Positions 348 through 29,749 of a DNA stretch of 64,000 bases are shown in pieces. Each line of letters starts with the position of its first letter. The stretch's first letter is position 1. This stretch comes from Demequina muriae. Its GTDB lineage: Bacteria; Actinomycetota; Actinomycetes; Actinomycetales; Demequinaceae. The notes beneath the pieces are model-generated. The model worked only from the letters and a program-made list of their open reading frames with translations. It did not search any database and was not told the origin of the DNA. The DNA lies in assembly GCF_030418295.1 (NCBI RefSeq), contig NZ_JAUHQA010000001.1, positions 1,302,001 through 1,366,000 of the forward strand, in the 5' to 3' direction. A program made the position numbers and the translations under genes.

Positions 348-382
348 CCCGCCCCGGCACCCCAGCAGCCCAGCACCCCAGC

Positions 383-412
383 CCCTTGTAGGAAGGTTCT
401 GTACACAGAACG
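383..412. repeat. Left inverted repeat flanking the AbiEi/DUF559 gene
   Basis: This 30-base element matches the reverse complement of 1432-1461 at 28 of 30 positions. It contains its own dyad, GTTCTGT-AC-ACAGAAC (397-412 region). A shortened direct copy, CCTTGTAGGAAGG followed by TCTTGTT, lies at 426-445 just beyond the stop codon of the enclosed gene. Confidence 0.85.
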
Positions 413-444
413 TCGTGGCGGTGCGCCTTGTAGGAAGGTCTTGT

Positions 445-1344
445 TCACGCCGCACGCTCAGCGAGCGTCCGGAGCGCGATCGCGCGACACCATTGCGGAC
501 GCTCGACCACGTCCCAGTAGCCGAACCTCACCGTCGCGATCCCGGCCGAGGTCAACACCGCATCCCGCCGCAGATCTCTCACTCGCTGCGACGGTCGCGA
601 GTGCCACTGTCCGCCATCGAACTCGAATGCCGTGCGCGTGGGCGGATCGTAGGCATCCACCCGGTACGAATCGCGACGAACAGTGAGGCGGTGCTGGCGC
701 ACGATGTTCGCGAAGGCAGCGCCGGTCAGCACGGTGGTGGCGCCTTGGAGTTCGAGGTGGCTCTCGATGCCGTCCGCAGCATTTCCGAGAAGTCGCACGA
801 GTCGGCGCCGTCCCCTCACACGTGGCAGACGGTCGACGAGCTCGGTCACCGTGCCCGGATCGATACGGCCGGCGGCACACGCCCCGTAGACGAGCGACTC
901 GCGTGAGTACTCCGGCTCCCGGGCAAACGCGTGGATCAAGGCGAGTGGCGCATCGGCGGTGACGGTGCCTCGTGGCATCAGTTCAGCGCTGATCGGATGC
1001 GTCTGACTCACGACGCGCACCCAGTCTGGGCCGCGGCGGTGACACCCTCGCGGGACGACGACGTCCGCGACGTCGGGCGCCTGCTCCAGAATTCCCCGCT
1101 CAAAGAGTGCACCCCGGCCGGTGAGCGCGCTTCCGGAAGGCATCCACGCGCATGCCGCGAGCGATCGCACCGACCACGACTCACTATGGAGGGCGCTCGC
1201 GTAGTGGCCCGGTGCCACGCGGACGAGTTCGCCACGCGCGACAGCTGCCTCGATTCCGCGCGGAGTGGCGAGACCGCGCACCTCGTCCACGGTGAAGGGG
1301 CGAGGGAGGCGTTGCGCCTCGGCGATGAGACCCCTGATCGACAT
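445..1344 (-). CDS. AbiEi-type antitoxin-domain / DUF559 endonuclease-like protein
   Basis: This 299-residue protein has a short N-terminal winged-helix-like region (about 10-55) of the kind found in AbiEi_4 antitoxins, with the pattern DEVRGLATPRGIEAAVARGELVRV. Its C-terminal third (about 195-295) resembles DUF559/VSR-fold nucleases: AYDPPTRTAFEFDGGQWH, then R-x-R-D-L-R-R-D and a final FGYWDV. The acidic residues of the AFEFDG stretch could be metal-binding. Proteins of this architecture are abundant in Actinobacteria, usually as solitary genes, and their function is not established. No AbiEii toxin gene lies next to it, so a complete type IV toxin-antitoxin pair is not visible. The gene sits between near-identical inverted repeats. 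The ATG at 1344 is preceded by a TAGTCA-like hexamer rather than a Shine-Dalgarno site. Confidence 0.7.
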   Translation of the reverse strand: MSIRGLIAEAQRLPRPFTVDEVRGLATPRGIEAAVARGELVRVAPGHYASALHSESWSVRSLAACAWMPSGSALTGRGALFERGILEQAPDVADVVVPRGCHRRGPDWVRVVSQTHPISAELMPRGTVTADAPLALIHAFAREPEYSRESLVYGACAAGRIDPGTVTELVDRLPRVRGRRRLVRLLGNAADGIESHLELQGATTVLTGAAFANIVRQHRLTVRRDSYRVDAYDPPTRTAFEFDGGQWHSRPSQRVRDLRRDAVLTSAGIATVRFGYWDVVERPQWCRAIALRTLAERAA

Positions 1345-1431
1345 GGATCATGACTAGCCGCGCAGGCCTCATGCCAACAGGGGCGTTGAGCGAACCTGTG
1401 GAAAACGTTCCCACACGACGCGCTCCGAAGT

Positions 1432-1461
1432 CGTTCTGGGTACAGAACCTTCCTACAGGGG
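1432..1461. repeat. Right inverted repeat flanking the AbiEi/DUF559 gene
   Basis: This is the reverse-complement partner of 383-412, with two differences in 30 bases. It carries an imperfect dyad GTTCTGG-GT-ACAGAAC and overlaps the last codons and stop of the neighbouring membrane-protein gene (stop at 1453-1455). Confidence 0.85.
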
Positions 1462-2013
1462 AGGCGGGGGCGGGGTCAGCGGCGGTGGGGTCAGCGGCGG
1501 TGGGGTGGACGGCGCAGCGGCCGATGCGACTGCCAGCAGCGCGTTCGCCGTGGCACCGAGCGCGAGCACCAGTCCGGACAACGCCCCCACCGGCTCCGCG
1601 CCGAACGACGCGGCGGTGATCACGAGCACCAGCAGAATCGGTGCGCCCGCGAACGCGAGCATCAACCAGGGGCGCGAGCGCCGCTGTGGGGACGCAACAC
1701 GATGAGCGACCACGATCACCCCGATCGCACTCGCCATGCCGACCAGGCCCAACGCGGGCATCGCGAACCGGCCCACGACATCGGCCAGGAACGCACCGTT
1801 GAAGCCTCCGTCCAGCGCGAAGCCGATGCCGAAGAACGCCGCGGCGGCCGAGGCCAGCCCACCCGGAACGGCCATGAGCCACGTCAGCAGCCGCAACGGA
1901 TATCGACGAGCGACGTCGTCCCGATCGTCGGGGCGCAGGAGCCAGATTCCGCTGTAGACGAGCGCCACCAGTCCCGTGAGCGCCGGCACCGCGAAGACGA
2001 CGAGGAAGATCAT
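1453..2013 (-). CDS. Multi-pass membrane protein of unknown function
   Basis: The product is about 186 residues with four to five hydrophobic segments: MIFLVVFAVPALTGLVALVY at the start, then helices near residues 40-60, 78-100, 120-140 and 145-165. The tail is proline-rich and repetitive (TPPPLTPPPLTPPP) and is encoded by tandem GCGGCGGTGGGGTCA-like units. I do not recognise a family. The start was placed at ATG 2013 because it overlaps the stop of the upstream tRNA nucleotidyltransferase gene (TGATG), which suggests translational coupling. The in-frame extension to 2037 would lie wholly inside that gene. The 3' end runs into the right inverted repeat of the AbiEi/DUF559 module, so the proline tail could have been altered by that event. 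Confidence 0.55.
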   Translation of the reverse strand: MIFLVVFAVPALTGLVALVYSGIWLLRPDDRDDVARRYPLRLLTWLMAVPGGLASAAAAFFGIGFALDGGFNGAFLADVVGRFAMPALGLVGMASAIGVIVVAHRVASPQRRSRPWLMLAFAGAPILLVLVITAASFGAEPVGALSGLVLALGATANALLAVASAAAPSTPPPLTPPPLTPPPPPL

Positions 2014-29629: not shown

Positions 29630-29749
29630 CCTGTCCGGCACTCATTGACCCCTACGCGGGTTCGGTGACTCCTGTCCGGCACTCATTGACAGTGAGTGCC
29701 GGACAGGAAGCCGCGAGCTCCCCTAGGCGACAGCGAGTGCCGGACAGGG
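29630..29749. repeat. Four-copy CCTGTCCGGCACTCA repeat
   Basis: Two direct copies (29630-29649, 29671-29690) are followed by two inverted ones (29691-29707, 29733-29749) in the gap between the convergent gyrA and MFS genes. The first two copies share 20 bases, including ATTGAC. Confidence 0.9.
29671..29707. terminator. Bidirectional hairpin after gyrA
   Basis: Copies two and three of the repeat form a perfect 15-base stem with a seven-base loop. The position between converging genes suggests it ends transcription from both sides. Confidence 0.65.

Follow-up and report, generated by a model that had tools for sequence, protein, structure and literature searches.

The closest described systems to the locus studied here are the REPtrons. 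According to two reports on them (PMC3733652, PMC8266576), a RAYT gene is flanked by inverted copies of its own repeat, and further copies are dispersed between genes, mainly downstream of them. The repeats occur as single and inverted-pair forms, and enzyme and repeat co-evolve. The 2013 REP survey leaves one REP superfamily without a dedicated transposase (PMC3733652). Three other papers describe MTES_1575 as a novel Vsr-type REase (PMC3710099), the endonuclease I-Bth0305I as dimerising on a target of nearly 60 bp (PMC3943268) and AbiEi as binding repeats near its own gene (PMC7319586). In the open literature, most subscription papers being outside the search, DUF559 genes paired with inverted repeats were not found. 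Titles and abstract beginnings on REP, RAYT/REPIN, Vsr, AbiEi and MITE topics describe no such pairing, and the literature searched assigns no role to DUF559-type genes.

The DNA analysed here (the window, a stretch of 64,000 nucleotides from Demequina muriae) resembles a REPtron in that a DUF559 gene lies between inverted copies of its own repeat, whose copies are dispersed and occur in single and inverted-pair forms. It differs by its enzyme, which is AbiEi-like with a Vsr/EDxHD-like nuclease domain and not a Y1/HUH protein, and by its repeats, which in the genus consist of directly repeated units spaced by 41/42 bp rather than of hairpins and have no general GTAG tag. A RAYT was rejected as the responsible enzyme, since the Y1 transposase family (PF01797) had no match in any of 31 genomes of the genus at E 0.001, whereas 5 of 14 controls were positive.

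Features of the DUF559 locus and of one miniature element, in window coordinates
Feature	Position	Strand	Basis or detail
DUF559/AbiEi-type gene, 299 aa	445..1344	-	ORF, sub-threshold Pfam, structure model
AbiEi-like part of DUF559 gene, residues 1-190	775-1344	-	fold match
Vsr/EDxHD-like nuclease domain, residues 193-299	448-768	-	fold match
Left two-unit element	387..448	+	unit 1 387-406, unit 2 429-448, 42 bp apart
Right two-unit element, inverted to left	1396..1457	-	unit 1 1457-1438, unit 2 1415-1396 (diverged)
C-rich tract preceding left unit 1	363..386	+	column counts
C-rich tract preceding right unit 1	1458..1481	-	encodes neighbouring protein's Pro-rich end
117-bp four-unit miniature	29631..29747	.	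units at 0, 41 forward; 56, 97 reverse

An earlier note on this DNA had described 30-base inverted repeats around the gene. These are real: window positions 383-412 share 28 of 30 bases with 1432-1461 read on the opposite strand. Each of them is actually unit 1 of a larger element of about 62 bp, made of two direct units of about 20 bp that lie 42 bp apart. What had been taken for a partial third copy exists (429-445, with 3 mismatches to the 17-bp core) but is really unit 2 of the left element, and the second unit of the right element, which is more diverged, had been overlooked. The core, TGTAGGAAGGTTCTGTA, was matched three times in the window with up to 3 mismatches and not once in 100 dinucleotide shuffles. 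The left element stands 39 bp past the stop codon of an MFS gene and overlaps the stop of the DUF559 gene, while the right repeat copy contains, as previously noticed, the TAG stop of the neighbouring reading frame (1453-1455). The statement that no target-site duplication is visible at this locus also stands. The GTTCTGT/ACAGAAC dyad attributed to both full copies is exact in the left one, but the right one keeps only 6-bp arms. Among the 12 elements of this genome, the exact 7-bp dyad is restricted to that left copy; a relative from the sister species keeps 6 bp and most elements lack it. Because it is not conserved across the elements, the dyad was taken as incidental and rejected as a protein site.

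The protein gives sub-threshold Pfam matches to REase_MTES_1575, DUF559 and AbiEi_4. With 18.6 of the 20.6 bits of the gathering score for DUF559 and 23.6 of 38.2 bits for REase_MTES_1575, it is related to these families but below their cut-offs. Its AlphaFold model (pLDDT 90.3, pTM 0.80) comprises two parts. The first resembles AbiEi (6y8q_A, Z 12.8, rmsd 6.2 over 183 aligned residues), and the second resembles 3hrl (Z 13.8), I-Bth0305I (3r3p, Z 13.5) and Vsr (1cw0, Z 11.0). A match to the TnsA fold is middling (Z 7.3). Seven residues, D230, E241, D243, H248, D257, R260 and D261, are invariant in 19 proteins. The likeness to EDxHD/Vsr nucleases is thus a prediction from the fold and from conserved acidic and histidine residues. 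No transposase domain was recognised in the gene, and a sequence profile search of the PDB gave one weak, unconvincing match. A phage or plasmid origin was rejected, as tblastn (E 1e-3) found no match to the protein in either collection. A profile of 19 Demequina proteins has matches, some of them partial, in 93 of 296 sampled genomes of Actinomycetota at E 0.001.

The window motif belongs to a small dispersed family. With up to 3 mismatches, the 17-mer core has 16 matches in the 2.8-Mb genome that contains the window (G000) and none for the reversed control. One match (C1:1380010), within a reading frame and without a second unit, was dropped; the remaining 15 make up 12 elements, 9 of which stand behind a gene reading toward them. 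These 12 elements and 6 from the sister species, G014, can be aligned without gaps over 90 columns. Of the 20 columns printed ahead of unit 1 of the 12, C outnumbers every other base in 19; a Shine-Dalgarno-like or Rho (rut) function was considered for this C-rich tract. The motif was found in 3 of 39 genomes, the window's own included: besides G000, there are 6 matches in G014 and a single one, with 3 mismatches, in G002, which was judged to be due to chance. Judging from their flanks, all 6 copies of G014 are orthologous in place to elements of G000 (five of them aligned). A clean insertion of this family was looked for between the two species and none was found; nor is there a four-unit miniature of the window gene's own family among its 12 elements. 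The site of element e04 in G014 (C6 ~832.4-833.9 kb; L079 4358-5898) holds 1.5 kb with frames that resemble, by eye, a sigma factor and its partner, and also three consecutive units whose motif types differ.

The earlier note had considered paired terminators and had held that a common extragenic terminator would contradict a cassette. The repeat is indeed a dispersed extragenic family, but it has no conserved RNA fold: the RNAalifold consensus of the window family amounts to -0.6 kcal/mol and 3 pairs. As there is no Rfam match at the elements either, an RNA element or terminator was rejected. The note's other proposal, paired operators, may still hold for the element that lies upstream of the gene.

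The two-unit arrangement extends to the genus, with other motifs. For example, in the orthologous locus of G014 the gene is flanked on either side by two-unit elements of another motif. The flanks of 30 loci of the genus, and then of 75, were searched with any spacing from 25 to 65 bp allowed. When a common spacing was imposed on each locus, 41 loci did best with 41 bp and 11 with 42 bp, giving 52 of the 75 DUF559 loci against 3.7 expected with equal spacings. Mean best scores were 71.3 for 41 bp, 61.4 for 42 bp and 55.3-59.7 for the other spacings. When the spacing was left free, it was 41/42 bp on both sides in 44 loci, on one side in 8 and on neither in 23. Other statistics were less useful. 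The four-unit score separates poorly (78 or more in 41 of 75 true pairs and in 29 of 450 mismatched ones, the 99% null point being 86), and plain flank alignment puts only 4 of 75 loci above its 99% null point of 99. Since shared neighbours inflate the mismatched null, flank alignment is unfit as a genus statistic and the spacing test was relied on. In these comparisons the gene is bounded by inverted two-unit elements, whose units lie 41/42 bp apart in most loci of the genus.

The motifs themselves are highly diverse and vary between genes. Over 46 of the 75 loci, motif similarity rises with protein identity (rho 0.39, reached by none of 999 permutations), but the pairs share ancestry, so that the correlation is no proof of recognition. 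In at least one case, the pair L055/L057 with its shared motif, the unit boundaries were set in different registers, which lowers the correlation. The winged-helix region had the largest regression weight (0.20), only modestly above the others. Three DUF559 genes (L063, L065, L067) lack recognisable four-unit flanks, and two of them, L065 and L067, are near-identical between two species and are perhaps a slow, domesticated group. At L176 (G003:C1:2051519), a unit of one motif family stands between two copies of a different short repeat, and the sites of two systems may be interleaved there.

Outside the genus, 3 of 29 loci were dropped for a short gene or flank, and inverted flanking repeats scored above 99% of 312 mismatched pairs in 12 of the 26 used. 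The direct-orientation control was passed by 9 of the 26 as well, because some of these repeats are palindromic. A common-spacing pass over the 29 distant loci showed no peak at 41/42 bp, the commonest spacing being 38 bp (4 of 29). The window family is not a hairpin palindrome; three of the distant loci (L200, L214, L211) look palindromic by eye, with long palindrome-like repeats of REP-like form on both sides of the DUF559 gene.

Copy numbers connect motifs to genes. Two genomes, G003 and G013, have a locus that carries the motif TGCGGGGCACTCACGCACC; they contain 28 and 27 copies of it, respectively, against 0-2 in the other 42 genomes. In G003, the units of the copies are alike and the spacers are not. 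In the same way, CTGTCCGGCACTCATTGTCG, the motif of the second DUF559 paralogue of the window's genome (C1:505 kb), has 43 copies in that genome, 4 in the sister species, 3 in G044 and 0-1 elsewhere. The motif of the G011 gene, TCGGGACACTCAGCACTCC, has 19 copies in G011 and none in its close relative G020, which has no gene at that site; there are also 8 in G047, 7 in G041, 5 in G017, which has a similar motif at its own gene, and 0-3 in other genomes. The motif of the G014 gene is present in 16 copies in G014, 7 in G000, 14 in G048, 5 in G015 and 0-2 elsewhere. No owning gene was found for the copies in G048, G015, G047 and G041 among their genes examined. Reversed controls gave 0-2 matches per genome in the four motif searches. 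By these counts, the searched motifs peak, with exceptions, in the genomes whose gene carries them. In G048 (14 copies) and G041 (7), the motif variants are GTAGGAACGTCAGCACTCAT-like and TCGGGACACTCAGGACTCC-like, and no owner gene was located.

The copies often form composite elements. Those of CTGTCCGGCACTCATTGTCG lie at 24 places in G000. Same-strand pairs less than 200 bp apart are spaced by 41 bp (11 pairs), 95 bp (1) and 136 bp (1), inward pairs by 56 bp (6), 97 bp (4) and 15 bp (2) and outward pairs by 74 bp (1) and 33 bp (1). Seven aligned four-unit copies, picked as having both ends, each measure 117 bp, and the miniature listed in the table carries the motif of this other paralogue (L084). 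G011 has six inward pairs, 106-116 bp apart. The searched motifs are, by sequence, gene-specific and dispersed as two-unit or four-unit miniature copies. Some single units also come from pairs that lost one of their repeats, or some pairs from single units that gained one (e11, 720096).

Eleven stretches of G000 were tested against fetched stretches of G014, and a counterpart was found for 6 and not for 5. At one of the six sites (L327), 133 bp in G000 correspond to 0 bp in G014, a clean empty site; the additional DNA directly follows a TAG, apparently a stop codon, and no target-site duplication is visible. This difference may also be a precise deletion in G014 instead of an insertion. A second site has 36 bases in G014 against 148 in G000, two others hold other, longer sequence in G014 (1681 and 677 bp), and at the last two the G014 sequence is about as long and contains weak remnants at best. 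The latter situation is that of the window miniature, whose orthologous stretch in G014 is of similar length. Furthermore, one miniature of G011 is absent from both G020 and G017. Where G011 has a second one, G020 has none and the miniature of G017 is of G017's own motif type; at a third site, the inverted pair of G017 and the 56 bases of G020 are both unrelated. At least one miniature is thus a discrete block that one sister species has and the other lacks. A further repeat family is seen in G017 (C16, ~9.1-9.2 kb; L303, L305), where an inverted pair with ATTCCCAATGACAGATGTGAC occupies the site of a G011 miniature.

Placement was studied for 29 dispersed elements, 16 of two motif types from G000 and 13 from G003, with genes called by a crude codon scorer. 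An upstream gene was called for 27 of them. In 22 of these 27 cases gene and element share their direction, the gene running toward the element, and 5 cases are contrary. For 20 of the 22 genes, the end falls in the interval from 39 bp ahead of unit 1 to 13 bp inside it. On these gene calls, most copies of both genomes follow a stop codon.

The gene itself has a long residence at its chromosomal site. The gene of the CCA-adding enzyme adjoins the DUF559 gene in 14 of 30 loci examined, and several of these loci have an MFS gene on the opposite side, as in the window. The 18 sampled genes at this site form a single clade in a tree of 75 proteins (support 100/97; one change against a shuffled mean of 16.2), and therefore the gene is not a fresh insertion. 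The cassette proposed in the earlier note survives in part: recent insertion was rejected on the evidence of that clade, but gene and both repeats do behave as one unit. Indeed, G011 has 1131 bp with the gene and its elements where its close relative G020, with flanks 92-94% identical, has 92 bp, perhaps with a short leftover of one end. That note had also counted a gene shared by relatives at this locus, with unrelated flanks, as an argument against mobility. The gene is shared, but the relatives have, on both sides, repeats of their own; both objections raised in that note thus hold in part. This is the real finding at this site: relatives share the gene yet own differently spelled flanking repeats. 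Twenty CCA loci were also fetched, picked largely for apparent absence of the gene, and 16 proved to be without it. In these gene-less syntenic loci, the best spacing was 41/42 bp in 2 of 16 against 0.8 expected, and paired units are not prominent. The DUF559 proteins of G000 and G014 at the site are only 47% identical, compared with 96% for their CCA proteins; for another paralogue, the identity among G020, G011 and G049 is 91-93%. In G012, the DUF559 gene beside the CCA gene is apparently broken in two: residues 11-186 and residues 183-297 are encoded at places separated by about 24 kb (C2:1476687-1477199 and 1501335-1501679).

Several other known systems share part of these traits. A gene of about 0.9 kb between inverted ends, gene-less two-end miniatures and presence or absence between sisters recall a small IS with its MITEs. 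However, no transposase domain is recognised, no target-site duplication was seen at one clean site, and the 18 sampled genes at the window site are one resident lineage. The N-terminal two-thirds of the protein have the fold of AbiEi, which belongs to the AbiE type IV toxin-antitoxin system, but no AbiEii-like toxin is encoded by the three scanned neighbours (the MFS protein, an uncharacterised protein and the CCA-adding enzyme), a nuclease domain is added, and the repeats lie on both sides of the gene and are dispersed. The C-terminal domain has the fold of I-Bth0305I and Vsr, and the target of nearly 60 bp given for I-Bth0305I in PMC3943268 is about as long as the 61-62 bp that two units cover, a parallel that is only suggestive. 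Unlike a homing endonuclease gene, the DUF559 gene does not interrupt its own site, complete elements, its presumed targets, being found on both sides; the protein has no match in the phage collection. Lastly, its nuclease domain shares a restriction-endonuclease-type fold with TnsA, a catalytic component of Tn7 transposition, but TnsB and TnsC are absent among the scanned neighbouring proteins.

The explanation that we favour, with a probability of about 0.6, is that the gene and its two flanking elements constitute one selfish or semi-domesticated unit, in which a nuclease of the DUF559/AbiEi type owns a private family of short repeats. This would probably be a partnership like that of REPtrons or of ISs with MITEs, where a DUF559 nuclease, not a RAYT, owns and spreads the repeats, and gene and repeats together resemble a type of mobile DNA that has not been described. 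The AbiEi-like part would bind both direct sites, about four helical turns apart, and the Vsr/EDxHD-like domain would then nick or cut there. Repair or strand transfer could copy the elements to new places, and selection would confine them to gene ends. The window gene would keep its single chromosomal site, where allele and motif turn over together, and old copies would later decay or be rewritten. A bolder version can be offered tentatively, at less than even odds. It would be a new class of prokaryotic mobile DNA, devoid of HUH or DDE transposase, in which an AbiEi-like/EDxHD nuclease recognises direct site pairs at 41/42 bp. Its own gene would move rarely and its two- and four-unit miniatures often, and specificity would shift so fast that each gene has its own motif in each species.

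Other explanations can account for part of the data. The gene could encode a DNA-binding regulator or autoregulator, the elements being operators at gene ends and at its own promoter that were spread by selection. The AbiEi-like fold (Z 12.8) fits this proposal, as do the AbiEi antitoxins that, according to PMC7319586, bind inverted repeats and regulate their own operon, a spacing of about four helical turns that suits a bound dimer and the fixed orientation behind genes (22 of the 27 elements with a called upstream gene). We nevertheless consider it unlikely: the sites flank the gene on either side and also follow many other genes, the motif of the sister species differs at the same site, discrete four-unit blocks are present or absent between sisters, and an operator role needs no invariant nuclease residues.

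Another possibility, somewhat less probable, is that something else, such as host repair or another transposase, mobilises or rewrites the repeats, with the DUF559 gene as a passenger or bound neighbour. It is suggested by the lack of a target-site duplication at the clean site, by the several motif families for which no gene was located and by units lost or gained through recombination between two direct copies (e11, 720096). Against it, motifs are gene-specific and their copies peak where that gene is, and the Y1 class, the only one covered by the search, has no member in the 31 genomes of the genus.

The locus could also be a homing-like site of allele exchange, where cutting at the flanking sites drives the replacement of alleles in place. 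The contrast between the 47% identity of the G000 and G014 proteins and the 96% of their CCA neighbours, or the 91-93% of the other paralogue, would be expected from such exchange, and the nuclease domain resembles the homing endonuclease I-Bth0305I; very fast evolution would, however, produce the same picture. We find this improbable, as intact sites flank the gene in the carrier itself, where a homing enzyme would cut them, and the dispersed copies are left unexplained. Finally, ordinary extragenic terminators or palindromic repeats with no tie to the gene, although they would be dispersed, intergenic and mostly downstream of genes like the REPs described in PMC3733652, are very improbable given the consensus of -0.6 kcal/mol and 3 pairs, the lack of an Rfam match at the elements and the genus-wide association with DUF559 genes, and as a full account they are contradicted by the copy-number peaks of the motifs and the 41/42-bp spacing.

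If the pairing of a DUF559 nuclease with its own repeats is right, it would account for an intergenic repeat family in these genomes and provide a nuclease-based counterpart to the RAYT/REP association. Considering that one REP superfamily has no dedicated transposase, it would become directly testable whether other enzymes own REP-like repeats. DUF559-type genes are common in Actinomycetota, and many gene-motif pairs would allow a protein-DNA recognition code to be read from sequence. Should the bolder version also prove true, these genes would form a natural catalogue of protein-to-target pairs across Actinomycetota.
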